The translations under genes and the position numbers were made by a program. DNA of 64,000 bases from Paenibacillus sp. YYML68. GTDB lineage: Bacteria; Bacillota; Bacilli; Paenibacillales; NBRC-103111. Below, piece after piece: positions 24,530 to 41,648 of the stretch (positions are counted from its first letter, which is position 1; each line of letters starts with the position of its first letter). The notes beneath the pieces are model-generated. The model did not search any database and had not been told where the DNA came from. It saw nothing but the letters and a program-made list of their open reading frames with translations. Location of the stretch: positions 552,501 through 616,500 of the forward strand of contig NZ_BQYI01000001.1 in NCBI RefSeq assembly GCF_027923405.1. Direction: 5' to 3'.

Positions 24530-27500
24530 TTAGGAGGCGGAAGGTAAGCTGTAGACCAGCATGTTATTGCTTGTTATTGCAGGAAGAACGACAGCGTCGT
24601 GCGAGCTGTAAGCTGCGTCAGCTACCCTAGCCTTTACTGTGATCAGTGTATTCGAATCGGATGAATCAGCCACCCAGGTAAAGGCGAACTGTCCTTCTGA
24701 ATCAGCGCGGGTATCGTAGTTACCTCTTGTGGTGAACAACGTGATATCCGCGTATGTATCGCCAATTCCAGACAATTTCCAGTAACCATTCTCGTACACC
24801 ACGCTTGTGATGGTAGGTGCCACTATGTATGTGGTCGGGAGTTGTACATAGACAGCGTCACTGATTGATTGGTTCGAGCTGCGAGCAGTGATATAGATCA
24901 TGTTATTCTCAGATGTGTGGAGAGGCAATGGGAAGATGAAGTAGCCGTCGTATTCAACGTCTGCGATACGTTCATCGATCTGTTCTCCTGCTGCATTCCA
25001 CATGATCACGTGTGACCACGGCTCGGCGTATCCTTCAAACCAAGAGTGCTCGTTGTTATAGACGACAGTGGTTATGGTAGGAGCAGCCGACTTCTGCAAG
25101 TAAGGCAACTTCACTTCAACCACTGCGCTTACGGTTTTCAGATCGGACTTTGCAGTAAGGAGAAGGGTCTCTCCTTCCACTGCATCTTTGTACGGCACAT
25201 AGAGCTCGAACCTACTCGTCCCATTCATGCCTGTGCTGGGAACGAAAGCTTGACCGATCTTTAAGCCGTTCGTGCGGACAGCAGTTATAGTGGTCCCAGC
25301 TTCTGCTGTTCCACTAATCATGTACCTGCCCCACTGGTCATATACAACTTCGGTTACTGTAGGCGCAGGAGTCACTGGCCATGCTTGCAGCGTGAGCGTA
25401 AGTGGCTCACTAGCAAGCTTGCCAAGAGCTTGTGCCTGTAAGATGACCTGCTCTCCGAGGAGAGCAGGATTACTTAAGTACAAGTAGAACGAGCCGTCAT
25501 AGTTGCTCGCTGAGGCTGAAGCGAGCTGCGTGCCGTCCAAGCGCTTGAGCGTCAGTAGGGCACTCGGCTGTGATTTGCCATACACTTGATCGTACACTGA
25601 CCTGTACACGGTCGGTGTAGCAGTCAACTCTGTTATTGGCAGAATGGTAATCTCGACAGGTAGACTTTCTTTATACACGGAGGAGGAGACCGTCATGTAG
25701 AGCTTGTCTCCTGCCTTCATCCCGTACAGATCAGACTTCCATACGGTCAAGCTGTATTGCCCGTACATATTGGTGTAGGTCGTGCGAACGTTATCGTTAT
25801 CTGCTCGCTTCAGATAGATCGTTGCATTAGGTATTGCAATGCCAGTAAGCTGTCCACCATCCGTATATATCCAGCCGGTCACAGTTGGAGCAGTTGCTCG
25901 GGGTGACGCCATAATCGTTACGCTGACAGGTGCGCTCTCAAGCTTGCCAATCACATCCGCGGTTATGGTCCATACTTGGCCTGCGGTGTTCGTGCCATAC
26001 ACATAGAAGTAGTAAAAACCATTAGTGGAAGATGCAACCGTTGTGCTGTTTGATCCATCTGCACGATGGAGTCGAACGCTGGCACCTGGTTCCGCGTACC
26101 CAGACAGGTAGCCGCCGCCATGCTCATAAACCGTGCCTGTTACGGTTGGTGTGGCAGTCGTACCTTGTACCTTCATGATCGTTAACGTGACAGGTAAGCT
26201 GTTATGCTTGCCTGTCACTCTGGCTGTGACAACAAGGGTGTCGCCCTCAATGAATGTAGAGTCTGAATAGATCTTCAATACATGAGTATGCAATGTGCCG
26301 TAAGAGTAATCCAATGAGTAAGACACACTGTCGCCATTGCTTCGTTTTACATCTACTGAAGCATTCGGCTCCAACTTCACCGCGAGCAGTCCGCCATCCG
26401 TATAGACAGCACCGATTACAGTAGGTGTAGCAGTTAGCGGAGCCGCTTTAACGGTCACTGGAGTCGGTGCACTTTCCGTTTTGCCGAAGGCGTCGGCAGT
26501 CAGAGTCAGAATATCTCCGGCCTTGAACTCATCGTATAGATTGAAGGAGAACTGGCCGTCGTACGCCGAGGCATACACCGTCTGACTATATTGAGGTGCT
26601 GCCATTAGGCGGACGGTTGCACCGGGCTCTGTTCTTCCGCTCAGCACTCCGTTCAGCTCATAGACCGTACTCGTAACCGTCGGAACAGCTGTTATGCCTT
26701 GAACCTTGTATACGGTTAACGTCACTGGGGTGCTCTTCTTGTACCCCCATGCCTTGGCCGTAAGCTTCAAGACCGCACCTTCCATCAGCTGAGAAGCATG
26801 TGTAAGATTCACCGTTAAGCTATAGTCGTAGGTCGGATAATAATTGTACTCTAGCGAGAATGGAACCAGGGTCCCGTTACTGCGAGTCAGCTCCAGTGTT
26901 GCGCTGGATTCATACTGGACGCGTAGCGCTCCGCCGTCGGTGTACACACTTCCCGTTACCACCTGCGGCGTCTGGGTTAATGGAGACGCCTTGACCATGA
27001 TCGTCACCGGGTCGCTCTTGACCTTGGAAGAGGCTCGGGCTGTTAAGCTAAGCTTCTCCCCCGCAGTGAGCGATAGCGAGTTGTTGTATTGATGGATGCT
27101 AAAATAACCGTTGGAATAAGTCTGCACGCTATGCAGCAGCGTTCCATCTTCTCTCTGAAGAAGAATCTGTGAGTACGGCTCCGTATAGCCCCATAGATCC
27201 TTCGATTCCTCGTATACCGCTCCATATACGGTTGGTGTTGAAGTCTTCGGAGATGCAAGCACCGTGAGCATCACAGGCGAGCTCTCCGTGCGCCCGAATG
27301 TATCGGCGGTCACCTTCAGTGCTTCGCCTGCGGACAGGTCAAGCCACTCTGGATGTAAGGAGAACGACCCTTGCAGGTTGGCTGTAGCTGAGGCCATGCT
27401 GCCCGTCTTGACCCGGGTTACAGTGATCTTGGACCACGGTTCAGCCAGTCCTGTCAGCTGCGGTGTGAGCTCGTATACGTTGCTCGTAACTGTCGGTGTC

Positions 27501-30500
27501 TTCGTTGCGCCTGCTATGGGTTGTATGGTTACCTTCACACGCTCCGAGTCGCCGTGGTCAGGGGTTCTGGCCAACACATACAGCTCGGTAAGCATCGAGA
27601 GACGGTCCACCATATCACTGGTGACGGTCACAGAAGTTAGGCCAACTCCATTGGCCTGCGTGGTGTGCAGGTTCGTACCGCTATGGTCTTGTAGCATGAC
27701 ATGGGCATACGGTGCAGTTGTCACAGTCAATACCCCGCCATCTGCATAGACAAGGCCAGTTACCGTTGGAGCTGCGCTTGCAGGTGAACTGAGAACGGTG
27801 ACGACGGCAGGTACGCTCCACTTGTGGTTTTGGCGCCTTGCTGTCACGAACAATTGATCTCCTGCAACAAGTTGAATGCCAGGGATCAATTCAACGGGTG
27901 CGGGACCGCTCGAATAGATGTAGCTATATGCGAGAAATCTTCCACGATTGTCCGTAATTTCAATACTGTTTCCTGGCTCCGTCGTTACCCAAACTCGGGT
28001 GGATGCTTCATAGACCAGGCTTGTGACCGTTGGCGTTGCTGTGCGAGGGCTTGGTAGAACGGTCACGGTCTTCGGTGCTGCGGGCGACTTCCCATAAGCG
28101 TCCGCAGCTACGATGACCTGCTCCGGCAGATCTCCGAGCCATACTTCGAAGTAGCGATCGTACCTAGCATCGGCATACCCGAGCAGATGTCCGCTCAGAG
28201 TCGTCACCTCCACACGAGCGTGAGGCTCGGACAGGCCCGTGACAACATACTCCGAGTCGAATACCTCGAACACAACCGTGGAGGCCGTTACCCGCTCCTC
28301 TGTAATGGGACGAACCTTAACAGCTACAGGCTGGCTATAGTTGAAGCTACTATTTGGCTTGTAGTACACGTACAGGGTATCATCTGCTGAGAATGTTTCG
28401 TGTGCATACGTGGACGCTCTGTACCTCCCGTCGTATTCAACCTCGCCTTCGCCTACTGTTAAGCCTTCCTTGTTCTTCAAGACGATGGAGCGGTAAGGAT
28501 AATCTCCGTAGCCTTCAGATGCGTCGGACTGAACAGGAGGGATCGCTCCACCACTGTAGCCGCCACCGCTACCTCCATTCCATAAATAAGAAGAAGGCAC
28601 AAGACCGTACAGTATGCCGCCGTCCGTATAGACAACTCCGGTTACCGTCGGTTCCATCGCTTGCTGCAAGTCAGGATGGAAGAACACACCTTGCATGTGG
28701 CGTTGACCGCTTTCTGACACAGCCGTTACCGTGATCTGGTAGGGCTCGTACTTCAGACCCTTCCCCGTGCTATCCTTCGTATCGGCTGAGCCTTGCCACT
28801 TCCCTGTTGTGTTGTCGGTGAAGACGGCTACAGGATGATGCTGTGAAGGATCTACTTTTACCCCGTAAGGTAAGATATAGATCTCCTGCTTGCTCGCCTC
28901 CGTCCATACCGACGGCTTCCATGCAACGGTAAAGTCGCGTCCATCGATACCAGGCTCCGTGTCCAGATCCATAGCGTCCACTCGTTTTGGCTTAAGACCT
29001 ACAGTGAACGCGTGTTGACTTATGATGGACTGATCCGCTAGTCGAATGACTTGCAGCTCATAGTCCGCTCCGAGCTTGGCCAGCTCCTTGTGCCCGACCA
29101 CCTCGTATTTGTTATCCGAATAGGTCTTCAATCTTGTCATTCGAATGATGCCCCCATCCGCTTGACGAACAAGCTGGACGTAATAGGCTTGGTCCTCGCG
29201 TAAGAACTGGACAGGCTCATTCGGGACGGACATAGGCGTGACCTTACTTGAACCACGGAAGGAGATCTGCACTCCTGACAATGTAACATGACTCGTGGAG
29301 TAGCGCTCCTCTTGCAAGAGTCCGACACTGTCAATCCAATCTACGGCGCCTACTGGCGTCGGAACAACACGAATGTCAAAGCTGCGAGTAGTCGACACAT
29401 CATGCTTCTGTATCGTTGCCGTCAGCTGCACGATGACATCCGCAGAGCCCGGTGCAGGAAGCGTCACCTGGCCATTCGGAGCGACAATGCTCGGATGACT
29501 GGACGTCCAGCTGATGGTCGTGTTCGCAATGCCTTTGGCCGGCAGTGTGATGCTTTGGTTGACCATCTGTGCGGAGTTACCTGCAGCGTACCCGATCTTC
29601 AGCTTATCGCTGGCCGCCGCCAGCCCCAGCTTGCGAATCGCTTGCTCCAGCTGCTGCAGCTTCTGCTTGTACGAAGACTCGATCTGCCCAACATCCTTAA
29701 GCGCTTCGTACAGATCCAGCTTCAGACGAGCCTTCCAGATCTGGTGATCGGCATCATCTGAATATACCGCCAGCTGAGTATGAACAGGGAGGGCGTCGAT
29801 CGCACCTAACAGCTCCTGCCGCAGCTTATCCTTCACATTGTTGCTCGCGTTGACCTTAGCATTCTTATCAACCTCGGTCGGGATCGCAGCGATGGTGTCT
29901 GCGGAGCCATCAAGCGTTACGTCAGCTTCTAGCTTCAGATTGCCGATCTTGGCACCGTCACCAATATTCAGCTTAACATCCGCTGCTTCCTTAGCCACCT
30001 TCATCTCTTCGATGGTGCCGGAGCCGAGTAACGAGACCACAGCACTCTTGGACGAGACGACGAAGCTCAGCAGCTTCACGCCTTCAGACGAGTTAAGGGA
30101 GATGTTGCCGCCTTTCACTTCAAAGGAAGGTATGGACGTCTTGCCGCCATTCTTCGGCGGCTCAAGCTTAATGCTCGTACCTGCACTGTTGGTGTCGGCC
30201 GTCACTGTACTATTCATCTCACCGCGGAGCACAATCTCTACATTGTCCTTCTGCGGCTGCAGCTTAATCGGTCCGAACGTACCGCCGTTCGATTCCAGAG
30301 CCGCACCGGAATTGACGGTCGTATCGGCAATATCGGTATTGCCCTCAACGACGATCCGTACGGGATTCGTCTGGTTCGCTGCATTCACGCGAAGCTTGTT
30401 CTTCACCTTGGTGTCTGCGAAGTAGATCGAGTTCGAGGCGCCGGAGAGCACCTCGATCTCATCAGCCTGCACGTTCTGCAGCTTCACCTCACCCGTGGAG

Positions 30501-31780
30501 CCCGGATTCAATACCAGCTTGCCGTGAATGACCGCTGCTGGTGTTCCTTCGACCGGGCCGACAGGGGTCTGGCTGCCCTGGTTAATCTCCAATACGCCGT
30601 AATAGTCGCCGCTGGAGAGACTCGTTACGATCGTATGGACGCCTGTGAACGAAAGGGACGTAGCGGCGCCCTTGTAGCTCAGCGCATACGACTGACCCTT
30701 CGTCTGAGAGGACGTCTTCAACCGAACAAGGGTCTTATCGCTCGCGTTGAGCACAGCCTCATCCACGGTCAAGGCAGGGGTAAAAGCGAAGTCGCCCTTC
30801 GCGATCTCCTGCTCGGTTGCGGCGCGGTTCAGCTTCACCTGAACGTGTAGGTTATCCACCGCTTGCACGGATTGAACCGCTAGCGCAGCTGTACTACTGC
30901 CGCCGCCAGGGCCGCCAAAGCCACCGCCACCGCCGACTGCTGGAGAAGCAGGAGTATCCTTTTTCTCCTGCTTCGCGTCCTTGCTTGCCTCAGGGTCGAG
31001 CTTCATGCCCTTCTCCTTCAGCTCGGCTTGCTGAGTCTTGAATGTATAGGCAAGTCGAGCAAGCGCCTGCCGTTCCGCCTTCTGCTGCGGCGCGAACAGC
31101 AACGAGCCGTCCTCGCCGTTCATACCGCCGATGAAGCCGATCTTGTAGCCTAGCGCAACATGTGGCTGCGCCCAGGTCGAGATCTGCTCGCGGTCTGCGA
31201 ACGGCAGCTCCGCCTTCGCCTTCTGCGCCGCACTCTCCAGCGCTAACGCTCGGACGAAGAAGACGACGAGCTGCTCGCGGGTGACGGAATCGTTCGGTGA
31301 GAACGATTCAGCCGATGTGCCGCTTGTGATGCCTGCCTGCACGAGCGCACCGACGAAGCCGGCATACCAGCTGTCTGGCGCTACGTCCTTGAACGGCGCG
31401 GCTGCCTCGCGATTTTCCGCTAGACCTGTAGAAAGAGTGAGCACCTTGGCCATCTCTGCGCGTGTCATCGACTGGCGCGGTGCGAAAGCTCCGTTCTCGT
31501 AGCCGGTCAATACACGCTCCTTCACGAGCGCTTCAATCTCTGACTTGGCGTAAGAGTCCGCTATATCAGACAGAGTAATAGCTGTCGAAGTCTCAGTCGT
31601 AGTGCTTGCAGCAGCGTAGCTTGACCCGGCCATGACCGGCAAGCCTGACAGCAGACTGGTGAACAGCATCGTCCCGCTCAGCACCTTCGCAACATCCGAC
31701 TGACAGCGCTTGATGGCGCTGCTCCAGACTGCGGAGAAGTCGCGGTTCTTATTGCGTATCTTAAGCTTGGTGGTTTCCAC
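24530..31780 (-). CDS. Giant S-layer-homology surface protein with about 15 Ig-like repeats
   Basis: About 2416 residues, exported and held on the cell wall. The N-terminus is a basic stretch then a signal peptide (LFTSLLSGLPVMAGSSYAAA). Three SLH domains follow at about residues 55-240 (TGYENGAFAPRQSMTRAEM, FKDVAPDSWYAGFVGALVQ, STWAQPHVALGYKIGFI), which bind pyruvylated secondary wall polymer. A Gly-rich linker separates them from a beta-rich region of about 700 residues. The C-terminal half holds about 15 repeats of 85-95 residues beginning 'TPTVTxxVYxxGGxLxGxAEPGAxVxL'. GTG at 31780 sits 7 bp after TGGAGG, so I chose it over an earlier in-frame TTG. No catalytic motif seen; adhesion or structural role inferred. 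Confidence 0.9.
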   Translation of the reverse strand: METTKLKIRNKNRDFSAVWSSAIKRCQSDVAKVLSGTMLFTSLLSGLPVMAGSSYAAASTTTETSTAITLSDIADSYAKSEIEALVKERVLTGYENGAFAPRQSMTRAEMAKVLTLSTGLAENREAAAPFKDVAPDSWYAGFVGALVQAGITSGTSAESFSPNDSVTREQLVVFFVRALALESAAQKAKAELPFADREQISTWAQPHVALGYKIGFIGGMNGEDGSLLFAPQQKAERQALARLAYTFKTQQAELKEKGMKLDPEASKDAKQEKKDTPASPAVGGGGGFGGPGGGSSTAALAVQSVQAVDNLHVQVKLNRAATEQEIAKGDFAFTPALTVDEAVLNASDKTLVRLKTSSQTKGQSYALSYKGAATSLSFTGVHTIVTSLSSGDYYGVLEINQGSQTPVGPVEGTPAAVIHGKLVLNPGSTGEVKLQNVQADEIEVLSGASNSIYFADTKVKNKLRVNAANQTNPVRIVVEGNTDIADTTVNSGAALESNGGTFGPIKLQPQKDNVEIVLRGEMNSTVTADTNSAGTSIKLEPPKNGGKTSIPSFEVKGGNISLNSSEGVKLLSFVVSSKSAVVSLLGSGTIEEMKVAKEAADVKLNIGDGAKIGNLKLEADVTLDGSADTIAAIPTEVDKNAKVNASNNVKDKLRQELLGAIDALPVHTQLAVYSDDADHQIWKARLKLDLYEALKDVGQIESSYKQKLQQLEQAIRKLGLAAASDKLKIGYAAGNSAQMVNQSITLPAKGIANTTISWTSSHPSIVAPNGQVTLPAPGSADVIVQLTATIQKHDVSTTRSFDIRVVPTPVGAVDWIDSVGLLQEERYSTSHVTLSGVQISFRGSSKVTPMSVPNEPVQFLREDQAYYVQLVRQADGGIIRMTRLKTYSDNKYEVVGHKELAKLGADYELQVIRLADQSIISQHAFTVGLKPKRVDAMDLDTEPGIDGRDFTVAWKPSVWTEASKQEIYILPYGVKVDPSQHHPVAVFTDNTTGKWQGSADTKDSTGKGLKYEPYQITVTAVSESGQRHMQGVFFHPDLQQAMEPTVTGVVYTDGGILYGLVPSSYLWNGGSGGGYSGGAIPPVQSDASEGYGDYPYRSIVLKNKEGLTVGEGEVEYDGRYRASTYAHETFSADDTLYVYYKPNSSFNYSQPVAVKVRPITEERVTASTVVFEVFDSEYVVTGLSEPHARVEVTTLSGHLLGYADARYDRYFEVWLGDLPEQVIVAADAYGKSPAAPKTVTVLPSPRTATPTVTSLVYEASTRVWVTTEPGNSIEITDNRGRFLAYSYIYSSGPAPVELIPGIQLVAGDQLFVTARRQNHKWSVPAVVTVLSSPASAAPTVTGLVYADGGVLTVTTAPYAHVMLQDHSGTNLHTTQANGVGLTSVTVTSDMVDRLSMLTELYVLARTPDHGDSERVKVTIQPIAGATKTPTVTSNVYELTPQLTGLAEPWSKITVTRVKTGSMASATANLQGSFSLHPEWLDLSAGEALKVTADTFGRTESSPVMLTVLASPKTSTPTVYGAVYEESKDLWGYTEPYSQILLQREDGTLLHSVQTYSNGYFSIHQYNNSLSLTAGEKLSLTARASSKVKSDPVTIMVKASPLTQTPQVVTGSVYTDGGALRVQYESSATLELTRSNGTLVPFSLEYNYYPTYDYSLTVNLTHASQLMEGAVLKLTAKAWGYKKSTPVTLTVYKVQGITAVPTVTSTVYELNGVLSGRTEPGATVRLMAAPQYSQTVYASAYDGQFSFNLYDEFKAGDILTLTADAFGKTESAPTPVTVKAAPLTATPTVIGAVYTDGGLLAVKLEPNASVDVKRSNGDSVSYSLDYSYGTLHTHVLKIYSDSTFIEGDTLVVTARVTGKHNSLPVTLTIMKVQGTTATPTVTGTVYEHGGGYLSGYAEPGASVRLHRADGSNSTTVASSTNGFYYFYVYGTNTAGQVWTITADVIGKLESAPVSVTIMASPRATAPTVTGWIYTDGGQLTGIAIPNATIYLKRADNDNVRTTYTNMYGQYSLTVWKSDLYGMKAGDKLYMTVSSSVYKESLPVEITILPITELTATPTVYRSVYDQVYGKSQPSALLTLKRLDGTQLASASASNYDGSFYLYLSNPALLGEQVILQAQALGKLASEPLTLTLQAWPVTPAPTVTEVVYDQWGRYMISGTAEAGTTITAVRTNGLKIGQAFVPSTGMNGTSRFELYVPYKDAVEGETLLLTAKSDLKTVSAVVEVKLPYLQKSAAPTITTVVYNNEHSWFEGYAEPWSHVIMWNAAGEQIDERIADVEYDGYFIFPLPLHTSENNMIYITARSSNQSISDAVYVQLPTTYIVAPTITSVVYENGYWKLSGIGDTYADITLFTTRGNYDTRADSEGQFAFTWVADSSDSNTLITVKARVADAAYSSHDAVVLPAITSNNMLVYSLPSAS

Positions 31781-32190
31781 CGTATAACCTCCATTTATAT
31801 ATGTAATTTTCAAGGAGCTGCGGGATGTAGGGATCTCTGAAGGAGTTCCCTGTGCCCGGCTGGTCGTGCGGCAGCCAGTGCTTGAACGTCGGATGAGCTC
31901 GCCTCCAGCTTCCGTCTATCTCACAATCTAGCAATACATACCAGCAATAATTCCAAAATATATTATAGGAGAACTAGGACCAAAAAACTACACAGAAATA
32001 CAAAAAATTACGAAAACTTTATTCTTTTACCTTTATCTCAAGCAATCGGAAGTGCATAACTACGGTTAATAAAGTCAACAAAACTTTAACAAGTTGAACA
32101 AAAATTTGAGCGTCTCGGTCCCCGTTTCCTGCTCGAAATTCGGTATAATCATAGCACGAACGCCAAAATGCAAGATTCGGGGTGGGTCAA
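31781..32190. promoter_or_regulatory. Divergent regulatory region between SLH giant and Sia-type operon
   Basis: About 400 bp without a gene. The part from 31930 to 32110 is markedly AT-rich. A perfect minus-strand -10 TATAAT (31967-31962) lies 180 bp before the SLH start, implying a long leader. Its -35 is poor. For the rightward operon I cannot pick a promoter with confidence. Coiled or bent AT-rich DNA here could bind a global regulator. Confidence 0.4.
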
Positions 32191-33228
32191 TTGTCTCAGA
32201 AGGACCGGAACATAGGCTACAGAAAGCTGTTCGCCAAGGAACTGCAGCTCGCCGAGGACGCGAAGCGAACAGTCGACGACCGGACCTTGGCGGTGGACGA
32301 GCTGTATATGCAGCATCAGCAGCTGGCCGAGCAGTATGAGAAGCTGCTGAAGACGACGATCAAGCTGTCCCGAATTAGTGACATACAGGGCAACACGCTG
32401 AAGGAGCAGGAGCTCGTCATCCAGACGGCGAACGATAATCTGAAGCGGCTGGAGCAGCTGCGCAAGCAGCTGATCGCCGATATTTCGCATGAGCTCGGCA
32501 CGCCGATGGTCGCGGTGCAGGGCTATGTGAAGGCGATGCTGGACGGCGTCATCGGTCCAGAGGAGAAGTATCTTCAGCTCATATATGACAACGTGCTGAA
32601 GGTGAATCATCTGATTAAGGACTTGTTCCTGCTGTCTACGTATCAAGCCAATCAGACGCATTTCGAGCACGAGCGTGTGGAGGCGGCGCATTTTTTGAAC
32701 CAGATGTGTGCGAAATATGTTCCGGATTGCGAGCGGTCCGGCATCGCGTTCGAGCTGGAGCCATGCAGCTTAACCTCCGTCATGACGCACGGCGACTATG
32801 CCATGATTGTCTGGTGCGATCCGATTCGTCTGGAGCAAGCGTTCGATAATGTGCTGCAGAATGCGGTTAAGTATACGAGGGAGGGTGGACGCATCAGCGT
32901 CGTCAGTGAATTTCAGCCGAAGTATGAAGGGGCGCTGCTCGGTCACTGGTTCGTCAAAATATCGGATACCGGCATCGGCATGGAGGAAGAGGAAGCGGGA
33001 CTTGTGTTCGAGCGGTTCTATCGAAGCAAGCGTGCCAAGGCTCAAGGTATTCAGGGCAACGGCTTGGGACTCGCGATAACGAAGGAAATTATTCAGAAGC
33101 ATGGAGGCGAGATCGGCGTGACAAGCAAGCCTGGCGAGGGGACGTCCTTCTTCATATTACTCCCCGCGGAACGGGTGGCGCGTGCCGATGGACAAGCAGG
33201 CTCCATGATGCAGGGGGGATACCGATGA
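32191..33228 (+). CDS. Soluble sensor histidine kinase heading a SiaB-SiaC-SiaA operon
   Basis: A 345-residue kinase with no membrane segment. Residues 1-95 form a coiled coil (KLFAKELQLAEDAKRTVDD through LLKTTIKLSRISDIQG). The H-box is ADISHELGTPMVAVQGY, then N box QAFDNVLQNAVKYT, G1 DTGIGM, F box FERFYR and G2 GNGLGLAI. The H-box has Gly where most kinases have Arg. TTG at 32191 fits a GGGGTGGG ribosome site; GTG at 32182 is possible but lacks one. Its stop overlaps the SiaB start (ATGA). With no sensor domain or partner regulator beside it, it probably takes input from another protein or feeds the Sia switch. Confidence 0.88.
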   Translation: MSQKDRNIGYRKLFAKELQLAEDAKRTVDDRTLAVDELYMQHQQLAEQYEKLLKTTIKLSRISDIQGNTLKEQELVIQTANDNLKRLEQLRKQLIADISHELGTPMVAVQGYVKAMLDGVIGPEEKYLQLIYDNVLKVNHLIKDLFLLSTYQANQTHFEHERVEAAHFLNQMCAKYVPDCERSGIAFELEPCSLTSVMTHGDYAMIVWCDPIRLEQAFDNVLQNAVKYTREGGRISVVSEFQPKYEGALLGHWFVKISDTGIGMEEEEAGLVFERFYRSKRAKAQGIQGNGLGLAITKEIIQKHGGEIGVTSKPGEGTSFFILLPAERVARADGQAGSMMQGGYR

Positions 33229-33770
33229 ACAGTCCGCTGTATGAGGTTCAGCGGTTTTTGCAAGAAAACCGCATTCTGATCAGCTTCACTGGTAAGTTGA
33301 CGCAGGGCTTAATTGAAGAGTATGGCGCAGCAGTGAGGAAGTATCTGGAGAATGCAGAGCGGCCGACGAATGAGGTCCGCAGCATCTTCTCGATCTTCAT
33401 TGAACAGACGCAGAACATTAACAATTACTGCAGCGGCCGGGAGCATAGCCCGTGGGCTGAGCAGCTGGCAAGGTCGAGTATTGTGACGATTGGGGAGGAC
33501 AGCCTGGGACATTATATTTACTCAGGTAACCTGATGGAGACTGCAGACGTCGAGCCGCTGAAGCATACGCTCGATGAGCTGCTGAAGCTTGATAAGGATG
33601 GGCTGAAGCAGCTCTACAAGGCGAGGCTGCGCGAGGCAGTCGAGCCGGGCTCGCTTGGGGCAGGCATCGGACTGATCGACATGGCGAGGAAGGCGAAGCA
33701 GCCACTGGAGTACTCGTTCACGCCGATTGAGGGCGGTCTGACGTTTTTCACGTTGAAGGCGGTGGTGTGA
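33225..33770 (+). CDS. siaB: SiaB-family protein kinase
   Basis: A 181-residue protein that matches the SiaB family (DUF6272), a GHKL-like serine/threonine kinase which in Pseudomonas aeruginosa phosphorylates SiaC. Recognisable segments: ENRILISFTGKLTQGLIEEY, IFSIFIEQTQNINNYC, SIVTIGEDSLGHYIYSGN, and the C-terminal nucleotide-site-like GSLGAGIGLIDMARKAKQP with EYSFTPIEGGLTFFTLKAVV. A good GGGGGG ribosome site lies 7 bp before ATG 33225. It overlaps the kinase gene upstream by 4 bp and the siaC gene downstream by 1 bp, so the whole set is translated as one block. Confidence 0.88.
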   Translation: MNSPLYEVQRFLQENRILISFTGKLTQGLIEEYGAAVRKYLENAERPTNEVRSIFSIFIEQTQNINNYCSGREHSPWAEQLARSSIVTIGEDSLGHYIYSGNLMETADVEPLKHTLDELLKLDKDGLKQLYKARLREAVEPGSLGAGIGLIDMARKAKQPLEYSFTPIEGGLTFFTLKAVV

Positions 33771-34171
33771 TGATGGATGTACGAGCAGGATTATATATAG
33801 AGGCGACGAAGAGTACGCCGCTCGTAAGCTTCGATGCGGAGGCTCATTCACTGCGAATTAGCGGAGAGTCGTACCCGGAGAATGCGTTCAAGTTCTACGA
33901 GCCGTTACTGCTGTGGGTCGATTCGTACTTGGCGGAGCTGGGGTCGGAAGAGGAAGTGAAGCTGGAGCTGCGGCTGTCATATATGAATACGAGCAGTACG
34001 AAGTGCTTCATGATGCTGCTGGAGAAGTTCGATGAGGCGTATGTAGCCGGTAAGCAGGTGCGGCTGATCTGGTACTGCAGCCCGGATAACGAGAGCGAGC
34101 AGGAATGTGCTGAGGAATTCAAGGAGGACCTGCGGCTGCCCTTCGACATCGTGCTGCAGGACGAGGCGTAA
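33770..34171 (+). CDS. siaC: SiaC-family regulatory phosphoprotein (DUF1987)
   Basis: About 133 residues. Family hallmarks are clear: EATKSTPLVSFDAEAHSLRI, SGESYPENAFKFYEPLLLW, and the phospho-site region LSYMNTSSTKCFMMLLEKF, where the threonine aligned with SiaC Thr68 sits in the NTSSTK run. In Pseudomonas, SiaC is phosphorylated by SiaB and dephosphorylated by SiaA; the unphosphorylated form activates the diguanylate cyclase SiaD. No GGDEF protein is present here, so its partner must lie elsewhere. The start is ATG 33770 (TGATG overlap with siaB); ATG 33773 and GTG 33767 are alternatives. Confidence 0.9.
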   Translation: MMDVRAGLYIEATKSTPLVSFDAEAHSLRISGESYPENAFKFYEPLLLWVDSYLAELGSEEEVKLELRLSYMNTSSTKCFMMLLEKFDEAYVAGKQVRLIWYCSPDNESEQECAEEFKEDLRLPFDIVLQDEA

Positions 34172-34174
34172 CGC

Positions 34175-35980
34175 GTGATGAAGCACTATGATAAAGGGAC
34201 GCTGCGGCTGATTGGCTTTGCCAGTCTCGTCATTATGTTCTCGATGCTGCTGATCGGCGCCATTGTCAATGGGTTCACGGAGAATGGGGTCGTCCGCAAG
34301 CTGAAGGAGAAGGATCTTCCGAGCATCGCACAAGGGATGGCGGCCAAGGTCGATGGTCGTATCGAGCGGGCGAAGGAGACGTCGCTCGTGCTGGCGGCTG
34401 ATCCCGATGTCAAGGAATGGCTGCTCGCGGGTGAGCCATCGGATGAGCGTCAGCGGAAGGCGCTGCAGCGGCTGAGTGGATATGTTCAGCAACTCGGCTA
34501 TAGCAGCTCGTTCATCGTCAGTGCAGGCACAGGTAACTATTGGGGGGAGAACGGCGGCTTGCTCGGCAAGGTGAGCCGGGACGAGCCAGCTGACCAATGG
34601 TTCTACCGCTTCCTCAGCTCTGGAGAGCCACTGCAGGTCAATCTGGACTATAACAAGGAGCGGCAGGAGACGTTCGTCTTCACGAATGCGCTCATGATGG
34701 ATGAGGCTCGTCCGCTGGCGGTTGTAGGCGTTGGGATGAGTCTCGTGGACCTCGCGGAGGAGTTCCGCCAGTTCAAGTATGGACAGACGAGCAGGCTATG
34801 GCTCATCAACGAAGAGGGATTCGTCATGCTGTCTGATCGGACGGACGATTACGGCAAGAATGTAACGGACTGGCTGGAGCCGAGCTTGACGGGAGTGTTG
34901 CTTGCATCCGGTAATCCAGCGCTGCAGACGTTCGAGCTTGAGGCTGCAGGGGGCGCCTTGACGGATCTGATCAGCTATCCGCTAGCTTCAACGAACTTGC
35001 GATTGCTGTTCCAGATTGAGCGGCAGGAGACGGTATCGTTCCTGAACCGGATTCAGCTGAACACGGTTGGGGTGGCTCTGATCTCGTTCGTGCTCATTCT
35101 GTTCCTGTTCTATTACGTCTCGCATCGATTGGTGAATCCGTTCGAGCGGGCGCTCCAGCTGAACGAGCAGCTGGAACGCAAGGTGCAGGCGCGCACCCGG
35201 GAGCTAGCCGAGCATAATGCGAAGCTGACCGACAGCATTGACTATGCGAGGCGTATTCAGGAGTCGCTGCTGCAGGGGGCGAAGGAGTTGCCCGGTACCG
35301 TGAAGGAGCACGTGCTCATCTACAAGCCACGAGACGGCGTCGGCGGCGACTTCCATTGGACGAAGCAGGTAGAGGGCGGCACGCTCATTGCGGTGGGCGA
35401 CTGCACAGGTCACGGAGTGCCTGGGGCGCTCATGACGATGCTCGCCGTATCTCTGCTCGATCGTGTATCCGAGCAGGGAGATGGCCGCCAGCCTGCGCAG
35501 CTGCTTAGTCAGATGAACGTGCTCGTGAAGCAGCTGCTGCATCAGTCGGACGCGCAAGGGATGACTGATGACGGACTGGACTTGGGACTGTGCTTTGTCG
35601 CTGAGGATGGCCATCTGCTGCGCTACGCAGGGGCCAAGTGCTCGCTATACGTGCGCGAGGGGGACGGTATTCAAGTGCTGCGCGGCGAGCGCAGAGCGAT
35701 CGGGTATCGCCGGACGCCTGCGGACTATCCGTTCCGCGATGAGGAGCTGCAGCTGTTGCCCGGCACCGTCTGCTATATGGCCACCGATGGATTCTTCGAC
35801 CAGAACGGTGGCGAGAAGGGGCTTCCCTTCGGCAAGAAGCGGTTCATGGAGACGCTCGAGCGTGTCGGCGGTCTGTCGCTTCAAGAGCAGAGCGACACGC
35901 TGTGGCGGGAGCTTGTTCGCTACATGGGCGAGGAGGAGCAGCGGGACGATGTGACGCTGCTTGCGTTTCGGGCTTCGTGA
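34175..35980 (+). CDS. siaA: SiaA-like membrane PP2C/SpoIIE phosphatase
   Basis: A 601-residue receptor phosphatase. Membrane helix 1 at about residues 10-32, an extracytoplasmic sensing domain of about 260 residues (Cache-like by size and SLVDLAEEFRQFK, LWLINEEGFVMLS), helix 2 at about 295-315, a coiled-coil linker (LEQLERKVQARTRELAEHN-type), and a SpoIIE-type PP2C domain from about 370. Metal-binding acids are present in GVGGDFHW, AVGDCTGHGVPGALMT, YMATDGFFDQ and QRDDVTLLAF. It should remove phosphate from SiaC in response to an outside signal. GTG at 34175 lies 8 bp after GAGG and 3 bp after the siaC stop. Last gene of the operon. Confidence 0.88.
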   Translation: MMKHYDKGTLRLIGFASLVIMFSMLLIGAIVNGFTENGVVRKLKEKDLPSIAQGMAAKVDGRIERAKETSLVLAADPDVKEWLLAGEPSDERQRKALQRLSGYVQQLGYSSSFIVSAGTGNYWGENGGLLGKVSRDEPADQWFYRFLSSGEPLQVNLDYNKERQETFVFTNALMMDEARPLAVVGVGMSLVDLAEEFRQFKYGQTSRLWLINEEGFVMLSDRTDDYGKNVTDWLEPSLTGVLLASGNPALQTFELEAAGGALTDLISYPLASTNLRLLFQIERQETVSFLNRIQLNTVGVALISFVLILFLFYYVSHRLVNPFERALQLNEQLERKVQARTRELAEHNAKLTDSIDYARRIQESLLQGAKELPGTVKEHVLIYKPRDGVGGDFHWTKQVEGGTLIAVGDCTGHGVPGALMTMLAVSLLDRVSEQGDGRQPAQLLSQMNVLVKQLLHQSDAQGMTDDGLDLGLCFVAEDGHLLRYAGAKCSLYVREGDGIQVLRGERRAIGYRRTPADYPFRDEELQLLPGTVCYMATDGFFDQNGGEKGLPFGKKRFMETLERVGGLSLQEQSDTLWRELVRYMGEEEQRDDVTLLAFRAS

Positions 35981-36062: not shown

Positions 36063-36827
36063 CATGACCTATGTACTTCGCGGTAAAGTCTGGTAGTTTA
36101 TCGGATGGTGCGCAACCCAAAGAACCATCCGATCATGCTCCGGCCCAAATAAGTCAATAAGTCTTGCAAACTGCTGTACATGTGTGTCACAATCGATGTA
36201 GATTGGCTGTTGCCCTTTGTGGTGTGACATGCGGACCTGACAACGAGTGTGGAAGAGGCCACGAACCATTTCGCCGTGGGTGTAGCCTTCACCACTCGTT
36301 TTTTCTTTGTTTAATTCGTATAGAGCAACGGACAGCAGCGTTTCGGCTGTAAACAATAATTCGAAGTGTGCATGGTGATGGGCTTCAGTTTCGGAATGAC
36401 ACTTCTCCAAGGCGAGCTCCTGCTTGGCCGTACGGAAAAACACCTCGATCCGCCAACACTTCACGTAAGTACGCAAGGCTTCTTCAGGTGCATCGAAGCG
36501 GTTGCTGATGAGCAGGTCTTCGTTACCCAGTCAAATTGATGCTTTTCGAGAAAGGTGAAGAAGCCTTTACACAAGTACCAGCGGTCCATCGCAACCCAAA
36601 GACGGCACGTCGCAGATTCGCGTAGCATCAAGAGCATTTGCGCACTCTCCACGGTTTAATTGTTTGAATCTCGGTTTTGTAACGCTGACATTGGAAGACC
36701 ACCTGTTATCTAGAAGATATACCTTGTGAAAAGGTATCCTTCGCAATTATTAGGTTGTTTTTCAAAAGTCAAGTGTTTTTTTGTTTTTGAGTACTACCAG
36801 TTAATTACTTCAACTGCATAGGTCATG
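36063..36827 (-). mobile_element. Internally deleted copy of the IS4-family element
   Basis: Both ends match the full element at 37985-39621: CATGACCTATG at 36063 and its inverse ending at 36827. The interior is a minus-strand copy with two deletions relative to the full IS, about 551 bp (equivalent to 38176-38726) and 319 bp (38848-39166). A one-base loss near the start codon ends translation after 11 codons. Only transposase fragments remain, the largest at 36069-36476 with the YREK region. No target duplication flanks it (ATATGGA left, TTATAAT right). It cannot encode a transposase but could be moved by the intact copy. Confidence 0.88.
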
Positions 36828-36934: not shown

Positions 36935-37977
36935 TTCATGTGCATATCTTGGTTAATCAACAAGCCTGGATAATTTAAATAAGAAGGGTGGTTTGTTTAT
37001 GGAAATTGTAGACGTTCATACGTTAATAAGAGTTGTCCATGATGTGATAAATAAGCAAAAAATAACGGATATGCATACACATCTTTATCCCCCAAGCTTT
37101 GGTTCATTGTATCGTTATGGGATTGATCATGTTTTAACGTATCATTTTTTGGTAAATGAATATATGAGATGGAATGAAATATCCATAGAGGAATTCAGAG
37201 CCCTTTCTTTAGAAAAACAAGCTGATAGGATTTGGAATAAATTATTCATTAAGCAATCTCCGATTAGTGAGGGTGCTCGTGGCGTATTAACTGTGTTATC
37301 TGCCTTTGGATGTGATATGAAGTCGCGGGATTTGGATACTTATCGAAATCATATGTCTAGACAAACGCCTTTAAATCACCTTCAGAAAGTTCTAGAACTC
37401 TCAAATGTTAGTCATATTATTATGACTAATGATCCTTTTGATAATAATGAACGTCAATTTTGGTTGGAAGGAAGAAAGCCTGAAAGAGCGTATCACGCAT
37501 CTTTGCGATTAGATAAATTGATTAGATATTATGGAAATCGTATTCAGCTGCTAAGAGACTGGGGGTATTCAGTAAGTGATTCATGGGATCAACATTCTAT
37601 TGATGAGGTAAAGAGATTTTTGAGAGATTGGATTTATCTCACAAAACCAGTATATATGGGGGTTTCATTACCGCCTACTTATGAATACCCGGAGGATTCG
37701 CCTGTAAATCAAATGTTGAGGGATTGTGTGTTGCCTATTTCTTTAGAAACGGGGATTCCATTTGCATTGATGATTGGCACAAGAACAGATCCTAATCATC
37801 CATTACGAAACGGATCGTCTATTGTAGGAAAAGCTGGTATTCAATCGTTGGAAAGACTGTTTAAAGATTTTCCTCATAATCGGTTTATCGTTTCAATGCT
37901 TTCACGAGAAGATCAACATGAATTAACTGTATTGGCTAGAAAATTTAACAATTTATTAATTTTTGGATGTTGGTGGT

Positions 37978-37984
37978 TTCTAAA
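37978..37984. repeat. Left target-site duplication of the IS
   Basis: TTCTAAA immediately left of the IS end; identical to 39622-39628. Confidence 0.9.
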
Positions 37985-39621
37985 CATGACCTATGCAGTT
38001 GAAGTAATTAACTGGTAGCATCTCAATCCAAAAAAAACACTTGACTTTTGAAAAACGGCCTAATAATTGCGAAGGATACCTTTTCACGAGGTATATCTTC
38101 TAGATAACAGGTGGTTTTCCAATGTCAGCGTTACAAAAACCGAGATTCAAACAATTAAACCATGGAGAGTGCGCAGGCGCACCCATACTGAAAAGCTTGT
38201 GGGAGCGGTTTGACCTTTCCCTCCTGCTCACACAATCCGGCATGATGAAAAGAAGCGGTACTCCGTCCTGGCTCATCTGCTTTCTGTATGTGATTGGCCT
38301 TGTCAGTAACTGCTCGTCTGTCGTTCAAATGGCGAGACTGGCCGAGCAAGATGCGCTTCTTAAAGTGATGTTCCAGCCATGGAAGCTTGCTCAGTATACG
38401 ATGAGTCGGTTTCTCTCGAGCCCCTTCGCATGGACTACCTTTGGCAAAAAGCGAGTAGCAAGGCTTCAGCAGGATGAAGTCACTCGCCTGCAGGATGGGG
38501 ATGTGATCAATCTGGACGATACGCATCTAGCTCATCCTTATGCCAAGCAGCTTCCTTTTTTAAGCTGGTTGTATGACTCGTCTAAGAAGACTTATGTGTG
38601 GGCGATGAATGTGGTCGTTCTTCAGGCCGTACTTCACAGCGGACTTGAATATCCGTTGTTTTACCGCGTATGGCACAAGTCTGAGCAGAAGAACGAAGGC
38701 TTGTCAAAGATCGATTTGGCCAAGCAAATGCTCTTGATGCTACGCGAATCGGCGACCTGCCGTCTTTGGGTTGCGATGGATCGCTGGTACTTGTGTAAAG
38801 GCTTCTTCGCCTTTCTCGAAAAGCATCAATTTGACTGGGTAACAAAGGCTAAACGCAACACGGCATTATTTCGTAAGGTCATCGAGCCTTGTACGGGTAG
38901 GGAGCGGTACGTTCCTGTGACCCCGATCATGCTCATCCGGGAAGTGTACGGGCAACTGGTTGCCGAGGGTGCGTCAGGACTGGTTTCACTTGCGATTCCT
39001 GACATCTACATGAAGCAGCCGCATCCTGTAACGAACCGCAGAGGCAAGCAAGTCAACAAGCAGCGCTATGTACAAATTGCCGCTGTAGCCGCCATGCGCT
39101 TAAAGGAAGACGATTCCGAGTTGCTCGAGACGGAGGAGGAAGCCCCCGCGACTTACAAGGGTGCCTACCTGCTCATCAGCAACCGCTTCGATGCGCCTGA
39201 AGAAGCCTTGCGTACTTACGTGAAGCGTTGGCGGATCGAGGTGTTTTTCCGTACGGCCAAGCAGGAGCTAGCCTTGGAGAAGTGTCATTCCGAAACTGAA
39301 GCCCATCACCATGCACACTTCGAATTATTGTTTACGGCCGAAACGTTGCTGTCCGTTGCTCTATACGAATTAAACAAAGAAAAAACGAGTGATGAAGGCT
39401 ACACCCACGGCGAAATGGTTCGTGGCCTCTTCCACACTCGTTGTCAGGTCCGCATGTCACACCACAAAGGGCAACAGCGAATCTACATCGATTGTGACAC
39501 ACATGTACAGCAGTTTGCAAGACTTATTGATTTATTTTGGCCGGAGCATTATCGGATGGTTCTTTGGGTTGCGCATCATCCGATAAACTACCAGACCTTA
39601 CCACGAAGTGCATAGGTCATG
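37985..39621 (+). mobile_element. Complete IS4-family insertion sequence, 1637 bp
   Basis: Terminal inverted repeats start CATGACCTATGCAGTT (left) and CATGACCTATGCACTT (right, complement). A perfect 7-bp target duplication TTCTAAA flanks it. It contains one transposase gene and interrupts the amidohydrolase gene. Perfect flanks, an intact frame and clean restoration of the target frame suggest recent insertion. Confidence 0.93.
38122..39615 (+). CDS. IS4-family DDE transposase
   Basis: A 497-residue transposase that would cut and rejoin the IS ends. The first catalytic Asp is in VINLDDTHLAHP (about residue 133), the second in WVAMDRWYL (about 218), the Glu in the IS4 signature YVKRWRIEVFFRTAK, which fits Y-x2-R-x3-E-x6-K exactly (about 372-386). 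ATG 38122 follows AGGTGG at 7 bp. The frame is complete and codon use is like active genes, so it may be functional and able to mobilise the deleted copy at 36063-36827. A 7-bp duplication is on the short side for IS4 elements but is known in some subgroups. Confidence 0.93.
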   Translation: MSALQKPRFKQLNHGECAGAPILKSLWERFDLSLLLTQSGMMKRSGTPSWLICFLYVIGLVSNCSSVVQMARLAEQDALLKVMFQPWKLAQYTMSRFLSSPFAWTTFGKKRVARLQQDEVTRLQDGDVINLDDTHLAHPYAKQLPFLSWLYDSSKKTYVWAMNVVVLQAVLHSGLEYPLFYRVWHKSEQKNEGLSKIDLAKQMLLMLRESATCRLWVAMDRWYLCKGFFAFLEKHQFDWVTKAKRNTALFRKVIEPCTGRERYVPVTPIMLIREVYGQLVAEGASGLVSLAIPDIYMKQPHPVTNRRGKQVNKQRYVQIAAVAAMRLKEDDSELLETEEEAPATYKGAYLLISNRFDAPEEALRTYVKRWRIEVFFRTAKQELALEKCHSETEAHHHAHFELLFTAETLLSVALYELNKEKTSDEGYTHGEMVRGLFHTRCQVRMSHHKGQQRIYIDCDTHVQQFARLIDLFWPEHYRMVLWVAHHPINYQTLPRSA

Positions 39622-40023: not shown

Positions 40024-40740
40024 TCAAGCCTTGAACAAGTACCCGGCCCCGCGAATGTTAAGCAAATATTGCGGATTGGCGGCGTTCGTCTCGATTTTCT
40101 TGCGCAGACTGCTAATATGGACGAAGATCGTGCGCGTATCGCCCGCGCTGTCGCTACCCCATACTTCCTTATAGAGCTGGTCTGGAGGGAACACTTGATT
40201 GGGGTGCGTGGCCAGATGGACCAGAAGCTGCATCTCCTTCACCGTCAGCCAGATCTCTCTCTCCTCGTCACGGACGCGCAGCTGCTGCGGGTCGATCTCG
40301 AAGCCGGCGATATGGATCGTCTCCGCTGCAGGAGCATCACCTGAGGGAGCATCCTGCGGACGCACACGGGCGAGTGGAGCGCGACGTAGATTGGCGTGCA
40401 CTCGTGCGACGACGACGGCCGGGTCGAACGGCTTCTCGATATAATCGTCGCCGCCGAGCTCAAGGCCCCGTACGATGTCTCCCGAGGCCGTATTGCAGCT
40501 GATGAAGACGATCGGCACCTTCGAGTCGCTGCGAATGTGGCGGCACAACGTGTAGCCGTCCATATCGGGGAGCACGATGTCGAGCAGTACGAGGTCCGGC
40601 TGCTCCTTCCTGAAGTGGGTGAGTCCCTCCTCGCCGGTGCCGGCCTCGACGACTTGGAAGCCCTGGGCTTCCAGATATAGCTTCAGCAGCTGACGAATGT
40701 CATCGGTATCCTCGACAATTAATATTTTCTCATGGTTCAT
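40024..40740 (-). CDS. OmpR/PhoB-type response regulator
   Basis: A 238-residue two-domain regulator. Receiver: ILIVEDTDDIRQ acid cluster, phospho-acceptor Asp in LVLLDIVLPDMDG, FIS(S/C) switch residue and Lys in DDYIEKPFDP. An Ala/Pro-rich linker (DAPSGDAPAAET) leads to the winged-helix DNA-binding domain (EIWLTVKEMQLLVHLATHPN, RTIFVHISSLRKKI, IRGAGYLFKA). ATG at 40740 lies 9 bp after GAAGGAA; an in-frame GTG at 40749 is less well placed. Fourteen bases separate it from the atypical regulator upstream, so the two share a transcript. No histidine kinase is adjacent. Confidence 0.93.
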   Translation of the reverse strand: MNHEKILIVEDTDDIRQLLKLYLEAQGFQVVEAGTGEEGLTHFRKEQPDLVLLDIVLPDMDGYTLCRHIRSDSKVPIVFISCNTASGDIVRGLELGGDDYIEKPFDPAVVVARVHANLRRAPLARVRPQDAPSGDAPAAETIHIAGFEIDPQQLRVRDEEREIWLTVKEMQLLVHLATHPNQVFPPDQLYKEVWGSDSAGDTRTIFVHISSLRKKIETNAANPQYLLNIRGAGYLFKA

Positions 40741-40754
40741 AGACGACACTTCCT

Positions 40755-41495
40755 TCAGAACGTAGAACGCTTCGGCTCGAACTTATAGCCGACGCCTCGA
40801 ATATTATGAATATAAGTAGTCCGGGAAGGATGGGGCTCCAGCTTCTTCCGTAGGTTGCTGAGGTGAACGATGACCGTGCGGGTGTTGCCATTGCTCTCCA
40901 TGCCCCATACCGCCTCGTACAGCTCCTCCAGCGTATAGACGGTGCCGGGACTGCGGGCGAGGAAGCTGAGCAGCTGAATCTCCTTCGTGACGAGCGGGAG
41001 CGCTTGTCCGTCCAGCATGACCTGGAACCGAATCGGATCGATCTCCAGGCTGTCGAATATCATGACCTCCTCCTTCGGGGGAGCTGAGACGGTCAAGGAG
41101 GTCTTCCATCTCCGATTGCGGCGGAAGATTGCAGAGCGTCTCAGGTTCGCTTGCACGCGGGCGGACAGCACCTTGGGATCGAACGGCTTCACGATATAAT
41201 CGTCTGCACCAAGCTCCAGCCCATGAATGATGTCGGCGGGCTCGCCTCGGCTGCTGAGTAAGACAATCGGGACGTTGGAGTAGCTCCGAATTTCCGTTAG
41301 CGTATTCAGGCCGTCTTGAGTGTGTGCCCCAATGCCGAGAATGACCAAGTCGGGCTCCAGCTCCTCGTAGTGCAGAGCAGCATCCTTCATCGTCTGCGAG
41401 CGATGTACGTCGTACCCTTGCTGGGTTAGCTGCTCATGGACCAGCTGGAATATGTCAGGCTCTTCCTCGACGATCAGGATAGTCCGGTTCGCCAC
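40755..41495 (-). CDS. OmpR-type regulator with degenerate receiver (no phospho-acceptor Asp)
   Basis: A 246-residue relative of its downstream neighbour. The DNA-binding domain is normal (LVTKEIQLLSFLARSPGTV, RTVIVHLSNLRKKL, IRGVGYKFEP). In the receiver the expected LxxLD position reads LVILGIGAHTQDG, so Asp is replaced by Gly. The acidic pair is Glu-Glu (LIVEEEPDI). The conserved Lys (DDYIVKPFDP) and Ser remain. Such pseudo-receivers work without aspartyl phosphate, by dimerisation or ligand binding. GTG at 41495 follows AAAGGAG by 9 bp. The tandem suggests heterodimers or antagonism with the phosphorylatable partner; inferred. Confidence 0.9.
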   Translation of the reverse strand: MANRTILIVEEEPDIFQLVHEQLTQQGYDVHRSQTMKDAALHYEELEPDLVILGIGAHTQDGLNTLTEIRSYSNVPIVLLSSRGEPADIIHGLELGADDYIVKPFDPKVLSARVQANLRRSAIFRRNRRWKTSLTVSAPPKEEVMIFDSLEIDPIRFQVMLDGQALPLVTKEIQLLSFLARSPGTVYTLEELYEAVWGMESNGNTRTVIVHLSNLRKKLEPHPSRTTYIHNIRGVGYKFEPKRSTF

Positions 41496-41648
41496 GGCTA
41501 TACTCTCCTTTCCCAAGACATGCGCTTCTGGTCCGGTCGTTCTGCAGATGCTCTACAATGAGACGGTTCCTACATACTTCGCTATGATGAGTTCCGAGAA
41601 TGCCTTGTACATGTCAGTATACCACAGTCTTAGGAAAATGCGCCAAGC

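Follow-up and report, generated by a model that had tools for sequence, protein, structure and literature searches.

Positions 32,191 to 35,980 of a 64,000-nt stretch of Paenibacillus sp. YYML68 DNA (the window, whose positions serve as coordinates throughout) hold four plus-strand genes, which encode a soluble histidine kinase (HK), a SiaB-family kinase, the phosphoprotein SiaC and a SiaA-type PP2C phosphatase (Table 1). The original prediction, made from the sequence alone, had described four such genes with overlapping or nearly touching ends, and the coordinates as well as the Pfam and NCBIfam assignments agreed with it. The translational coupling it proposed between the HK gene and siaB corresponds to a visible ATGA overlap, the ATG of siaB lying within the HK stop; likewise, the GTG start of siaC overlaps the siaB stop codon. 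The HK gene itself starts with a TTG preceded by GGGGTGGG, and an in-frame GTG is present at 32182.

Only HisKA (5e-12) and HATPase_c (4e-27) were recognised in the HK; no other Pfam domain, including any sensor or RsbU N-terminal domain, was found at E <= 0.001, consistent with the kinase devoid of sensor or membrane domain that had been announced. The H-box histidine is His100 and the N, G1, F and G2 boxes were seen by eye, so that the protein has the domains and boxes of a two-component kinase. Its H-box (SHELGTP) had been considered unusual; among 21 aligned HKs, the position concerned is G in 14, R in six and F in one, which makes it a norm of the family.

The three other products matched structures of known Sia proteins. 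SiaB aligned with PDB 6KKO (E = 1e-29) and has kept the predicted catalytic Glu (E61 in Pseudomonas, as given in passages of PMC7647112), SiaC aligned with its Pseudomonas counterpart in the PDB (E = 8e-26), Thr75 of its NTSS motif falling on Pseudomonas Thr68, and SiaA matched 6K4E in its PP2C part (E = 2e-59) and the dCache sensor of McpH (8BMV) in its sensor part (E = 1.7e-17). Judged from these comparisons, the components of a SiaBCA partner switch are present: a SiaC with the NTSS threonine, a SiaB with the catalytic Glu and a PP2C phosphatase with an N-terminal sensor. NCBIfam equivalog cut-offs set for the Pseudomonas proteins were missed by SiaC (121.7/150), SiaB (143/225) and SiaA (315/700), and because of these scores the operon proteins are assigned to the Sia family but to a system other than the Pseudomonas orthologous one. 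As had been noticed, there is no SiaD: none of the four genes encodes a GGDEF protein, and the operon has no SiaD-type output.

Table 1. Features of the window, operon genes first
Feature	Position	Strand	Basis and remarks
Soluble HK, N-terminal putative SiaC-docking stalk	32191-33228	+	Pfam, stalk profile, motif positions, alignment, AlphaFold2 model
SiaB-family protein kinase	33225-33770	+	DUF6272 6e-40; SiaB_fam_kinase 193 bits (cut-off 85)
SiaC phosphoprotein	33767-34171	+	PF09345 9e-42, 142 bits (cut-off 24.5)
SiaA-type PP2C phosphatase, dCache-like sensor	34175-35980	+	SpoIIE PP2C 1e-28 (Pfam); Cache below Pfam cut-off
OmpR-family response regulator A (Response_reg + Trans_reg_C), likely HK partner	40024-40749	-	Pfam; 73% identity to regulator of locus L042
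OmpR-family response regulator B, in tandem with A	40755-41516	-	Pfam; 66% identity to second regulator of L042
SLH/Big repeat (SLH/Big_6) surface-type gene	24530-31813	-	2427 aa from first possible start
Transposase-like fragment	about 36069-36650	-	By eye
Transposase (DDE_Tnp_1)	38122-39615	+	Pfam; between siaA and the regulators

The N-terminal stalk of the kinase

The HK begins with an N-terminal coiled coil (residues about 35-95) that bears a K..xISDxQ motif, K58..R61-I62-S63-D64-x-Q66. This stalk, LAEQYEKLLKTTIKLSRISDIQ, aligned without gaps with LSERYHKQLRRLEKVARISDRY of SiaD (7e6g sequence), the stretch contacted by SiaC in structure 7E6G; the helix sequences are LAEQYEKLLKTTIKLSRISDIQG in the HK and LSERYHKQLRRLEKVARISDRYQ in SiaD (PDB 7e6g). 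Passages of PMC8457831 list K77, V78, R80, I81, S82, D83, R84, Y85 and Q86, among others, as the contacts of Pseudomonas SiaC on the SiaD stalk helix. K58, R61, I62, S63 and D64 of the HK are identical to K77, R80, I81, S82 and D83, and conservative replacements stand at the SiaD contacts V78, R90 and D91. On the other side of the interface, the counterparts of Y65, N67, T68, S69, M75, E110 and D114 are kept in the window SiaC. A phmmer comparison of HK residues 1-170 with the PDB yielded 27 chains, 7e6g_A being the sole cyclase and a weak match (E = 0.55); the others are named kinases or sensor proteins, one of them merely 'ATP-binding protein'. By itself, the alignment of the two stalks is weak, and the case is carried by the comparative data.

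Conservation of the motif was surveyed on 80 segments, picked with a pattern in which D is fixed and the two preceding places accept I/V/L/M and S/T/A/N/G. I was found in 80 of 80, S in 74 and K at -4 in 72, three positions that are only partly free of the selection pattern (K/R served as a tie-break); the D in 80/80 is uninformative because the pattern fixes it. In an AlphaFold2 model of the HK, residues 35-117 form one unbroken helix spanning the motif and His100; this is a monomer model (18-row alignment, mean pLDDT 74.6, stalk pLDDT about 66-74) and is silent on SiaC docking. Where the pattern located both ISD and the His, in 19 HKs, the spacing between them was always 38; two HKs (L054, L075) were unmatched.

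Distribution of the stalk and of its outputs

A stalk profile of 15 rows (A1) was run over whole genomes at three levels, the order set (392 genomes) including the family set (104 genomes), and the best 17 candidates per genome being scored at the order and phylum levels. Fifteen of the 26 family loci are the training rows of A1; genomes independent of training number 11 in the family, 8 more in the order and 8 more in the phylum sample. SiaC was present in 26 of the 104 family genomes, and SiaB in the same 26. A1 matched 27 family genomes, that is 26/26 with SiaC and 1/78 without. The order set gave 35 matches at E <= 1e-9 (34/34 with SiaC, 1/358 without), the 11 other listed genomes scoring E >= 0.0018, and a phylum sample of 398 genomes gave 9/10 and 0/388, respectively, at E <= 0.001. 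In the tenth SiaC-bearing genome of this sample (G728), siaB adjoins a GGDEF gene whose stalk is weak (E = 0.71). In the window genome, the profile found the HK alone and no GGDEF protein, despite 31 GGDEF matches.

The sole genome with a stalk and without SiaC, G073, has an HK that belongs to the same lineage (phmmer E = 3e-149) and ends 92 nt from tandem regulators, siaBCA being gone; in the sister locus L052, siaBCA sits between the HK and the regulators. Its motif reads RMND instead of RISD, the ISD being intact in the other 20 HKs of the alignment. Loss of siaBCA together with motif decay is what docking would predict, in this single case.

Stretches of 9-20 kb were fetched around the 26 family loci, each of which has one stalk protein in or directly adjoining siaBCA. 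This protein is an HK in 20 loci, including the window, a GGDEF-HD protein in five (L037, L045, L048, L050, L059) and a CheA-like protein in one (L041; Hpt-HATPase, split over two frames). The linkage of the HK to siaBCA foreseen by the original prediction thus stood for these 20 loci; in the six others the stalk-GGDEF-HD or stalk-CheA-like protein stands beside siaA. Four of the five GGDEF-HD loci were first spotted by an HK match limited to about the first 60-80 residues, in the gene downstream of siaA.

A wider scan of genome contigs confirmed 99 relatives, of which 80 loci were kept, 26 of them overlapping the genomes already fetched (the SiaC query of the locus scans carried one extra residue past the stop codon). 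Every Bacillota locus among the 80 has a stalk protein, except L119, where the contig ends in siaA. Stalk-GGDEF-HD proteins occur in most Clostridia and Negativicutes, and stalk-GGDEF alone in Clostridium, Peptoclostridium, Pseudomonadota, Thermodesulfobacteriota, Acidobacteriota and one Spirochaeta. Cohnella and Gordonibacillus have stalk-CheA-like proteins; Clostridium magnum (L138) and L128 have one in addition to another stalk protein, that of L128 being cut by the contig end with Hpt alone visible. The stalk also stands on hybrid HisKA-HATPase-REC kinases in one member of the Thermotogaceae and in a Spirochaetes metagenome-assembled genome (L143, L147). Two loci (L164:3484-10051 and L165:3514-10091) combine siaBCA and stalk-GGDEF-HD with a divergent stalk-HK and regulator, placing two outputs around one siaBCA; the genome of L165 (G712) has a second SiaC elsewhere. 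Three SiaC-bearing genomes (L062-L064) have an unlinked stalk-GGDEF of 250-270 aa with ISD intact.

It is rather probable that the stalk serves as an input module for SiaC docking which can be moved between enzymes: diguanylate cyclases and GGDEF-HD proteins bear it, as do HKs (orthodox and hybrid), CheA-like kinases and a PP2C. Through it, one threonine switch could feed both two-component and c-di-GMP signalling, sometimes within a single locus (L164, L165) or a single genome (L062-L064). With regard to PP2C, a SpoIIE-type protein with a weak stalk (IGD) was observed in a Geobacteraceae metagenome-assembled genome (L131:3980-4921), directly after a stalk-GGDEF gene.

Response regulators were searched with one receiver-domain query among open reading frames of 191-329 aa. 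Of 20 stalk-HK relatives, 15 have a regulator no more than 300 nt away from the operon (L039, L040, L042, L046, L047, L049, L052, L053, L054, L056, L057, L058, L060, L061, L075) versus none of 11 stalk-GGDEF-HD loci (L037, L045, L048, L050, L059, L076-L080, L082). Pfam assigned the regulators of 11 of the 15 loci to the OmpR type (for L052, on the second member of the pair), and those of the remaining four (L040, L046, L047, L061) were assigned to it by at least 58% identity to a regulator in another of the 15 loci. In L042, the pair to which the window regulators A and B are related directly adjoins siaA. These two, at 40024-41516, had been overlooked in the window and are likely response regulators of the HK. 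The HK lies downstream of siaC in 10 of the 20 HK-type relatives, versus first in the operon in the window.

The history of the outputs was approached with two trees. The SiaB+SiaC tree (86 rows, quick method; L139 and L157 omitted as having no SiaB hit) had widespread GGDEF-type outputs and kinase outputs in several places, with five changes in a first count; for 13 rows the type of output was assigned manually (L148, L151 and L159 were later confirmed as GGDEF) and L119-L122, cut or doubtful, stood outside the overall change count. In the kinase-core tree, the 21 Firmicutes stalk-HKs included all lie to one side of a branch (SH-aLRT 89), next to longer kinases (~700 aa) adjoining regulators, and the hybrid kinases lie apart from them; the tree was built without the stalk-HKs of L040, L051 and L054, which failed the hit filters, and its change counts were left unused, L143 and L147 having been entered twice (once as 'other'). 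These topologies suggest at least two separate origins of kinase outputs, orthodox and hybrid, in addition to the CheA-like type. Many kinase/cyclase swaps within Paenibacillus were also considered, and this scenario was dropped in view of the kinase-core branch and of two genomes with both outputs. Since these two observations fit it equally well, one old HK fusion followed by differential loss in Paenibacillaceae is as likely as repeated swapping.

Proposed switch, alternatives and known systems

The order of the genes, the resemblance of the stalks, co-occurrence, the decayed motif and regulator linkage argue, with a probability that we put at roughly three in four, for a SiaBCA partner switch that has the histidine kinase as its output, SiaC docking on the HK stalk, in place of c-di-GMP synthesis. 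The stalk had escaped the original prediction; because the HK carries the SiaC-docking stalk of SiaD, it is most likely an output rather than an added input. In this scheme we infer the binding and the phosphorylation of Thr75, and equally the direction of the effect, the pairing with the regulators and the genes targeted. An outside signal at the Cache-like domain of SiaA would set the rate at which SiaA dephosphorylates SiaC, SiaB being the kinase that would phosphorylate SiaC at Thr75. SiaC without phosphate would dock the coiled-coil stalk of the HK at K-x-x-R-I-S-D-x-Q, as on SiaD in Pseudomonas, and docking would alter dimer packing, shifting the balance between kinase and phosphatase activities. 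We propose that this action on the DHp dimer could be direct because the stalk and the DHp helix bearing His100 are one helix; an action of this kind is proposed for coiled-coil linkers in general (PMC12143880). The shift in HK activity, in either direction, would then reach transcription through the paired OmpR-type regulators (40024-41516).

Several observations weigh against this proposal. At the interface, the SiaD contacts R74, R84 and M88 are unmatched in the HK stalk and the SiaC contacts I71, R103 and L107 in the window SiaC, the glutamine comes one place earlier in the HK than in SiaD (85, not 86), SiaD has two motifs and the HK one, and the first 95 residues of the HK alone gave no match in the PDB. 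Regarding co-occurrence, the hits of 15 family loci are circular since those loci trained A1, motif decay rests on one genome (G073), and an unlinked stalk-GGDEF in a SiaC-bearing genome (L065) has the degenerate motif RVGDIHG. No stalk protein was found in L146, which has SiaA, SiaB and SiaC, nor by profile in nine loci (L152, L154-L158, L160-L162; eight Bacteroidota and one other bacterium) with SiaC, with SiaB in 8/9 and with no SiaA hit; a loose stalk pattern, applied to one strand over 6.5 kb, gave only scattered matches in them. Because no stalk protein was found in Bacteroidota loci with SiaC and without SiaA, the occurrence of the stalk follows that of SiaA in addition to that of SiaC. 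As for the output, the window regulators lie 4 kb from the operon with a DDE transposase (38122-39615) in between, and five of the 20 stalk-HK relatives (L038, L043, L044, L051, L055) have no adjacent regulator. Finally, the HKs of L040 (8310-9275) and L054 (10160-10747) have no Pfam-recognised ATPase domain, and those of L049 (8741-9709) and L056 (8774-9769) have ATP-binding boxes altered by eye, the Pfam ATPase match being kept; since these four either lack the ATPase part or have it altered, kinase activity cannot be the general output. Each of the four loci also encodes a longer kinase (~700 aa) adjacent to the regulator, and their stalk protein may be a SiaC-gated phosphatase or sink.

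The SiaC of the nine Bacteroidota-type loci mostly reads YFNTSSSM.

The same nine loci are what would be expected if the stalk went with SiaA, and could be read as a sign that it docks SiaA or SiaB, not SiaC, the HK being the scaffold of a signalling complex. As SiaB and SiaC share the same 26 family genomes, the bound partner is undecidable from co-occurrence alone. We nevertheless hold such a scaffold to be unlikely: it is SiaC that binds the matching SiaD stretch in 7E6G, the SiaC residues facing the stalk are largely kept, and L146 has SiaA with no stalk protein found. The picture drawn by the original prediction, in which the HK brings a cytosolic signal into the SiaB/SiaC switch and the output lies elsewhere, appears slightly less probable still. 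The leading position of the HK in the window operon, its overlap with siaB and its kinase boxes are compatible with such an input, but no Pfam sensor domain was found in it, the same stalk stands on the GGDEF-type proteins that replace it, and half of the HK-type relatives have it after siaC, with regulators linked in 15 of 20.

A target in trans, one of the diguanylate cyclases of the genome, with the HK as a passenger, would suit the known SiaC target, a GGDEF enzyme, and the 31 GGDEF matches. This option is very improbable, and such a partner was rejected here because the profile found no second stalk carrier in the genome; moreover, four relatives with an extra stalk-GGDEF still hold a stalk-HK in the operon. 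GGDEF proteins, which had been put forward as possible partners of SiaC, are accordingly unlikely in this genome. Control of the neighbouring SLH surface protein by the operon, to which the 377-nt intergenic region common to both could have pointed, is the least credible option and was rejected, tblastn with the first 1000 residues of the SLH protein giving no match in the loci of 25 relatives (upstream sequence is short in L042, ~0.1 kb, and L051, 1.6 kb).

What the original prediction had called a Gram-positive version of the switch with a different output is therefore retained as to the switch family and the non-SiaD output, and abandoned as to surface-protein control; the divergent SLH gene, estimated at about 2416 aa, is indeed there, and its linkage was not recovered in relatives. 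Beyond it, a very large gene of 1835 aa with CarboxypepD_reg repeats (18944-24451) is convergent with the SLH gene, both being of surface type. Downstream of the operon, no Pfam match was obtained for 36993-38018.

Several known systems can be compared with a SiaC-gated histidine kinase. The nearest, SiaABCD of Pseudomonas aeruginosa, in which SiaC activates the diguanylate cyclase SiaD (passages of PMC8457831 and PMC7647112) and which has been presented as PP2C and c-di-GMP signalling merged into one (PMC9239204), has the same SiaA phosphatase, SiaB kinase and NTSS threonine of SiaC, and an output with a helical stalk and ISD motif. Here there is no SiaD: the stalk stands on a HisKA-HATPase_c protein with one motif instead of two, regulators are linked and the host is Gram-positive. 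According to PMC12143880, RsbU-type N-terminal (RsbT-binding) domains are likewise exchanged, with a coiled-coil linker, among PP2C, GGDEF and histidine kinase effectors; the partner would be SiaC here rather than RsbT, SiaC is itself phospho-switched, and the HK has no RsbU-type Pfam hit (E <= 0.001). PnpS/PhoR-type sensor kinases share the kinase core, PnpS being the top NCBIfam match of the HK (190.9 bits), but this score is far under the PnpS cut-off (400 bits), and the HK has the SiaC stalk in place of a sensor domain. In the HsbA-HsbD and BgrV-BgrR partner switches, a STAS-type phosphoprotein also acts directly on an enzyme, their outputs being diguanylate cyclases. No description of SiaC acting on a histidine kinase was found among the titles, abstract openings and text passages returned by full-text literature searches, whose coverage of subscription papers was limited.

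The HK is best regarded as a SiaC-gated output enzyme, and the operon as a form of the SiaABC(D) switch with a two-component system where the Pseudomonas one has c-di-GMP synthesis. If this is true, Ser/Thr partner switching and His-Asp two-component signalling, normally treated apart, would be joined via one short docking motif. The Discussion of PMC8457831 suggested that DUF1987 (SiaC-like) proteins modulate adjacent proteins, and called the reason for a separate binding protein unclear; a SiaC that is a plug fitting many enzymes would suggest why a diguanylate cyclase needs one. Where no output has been assigned to the SiaC of a genome, the motif also gives a prediction that can be tested.

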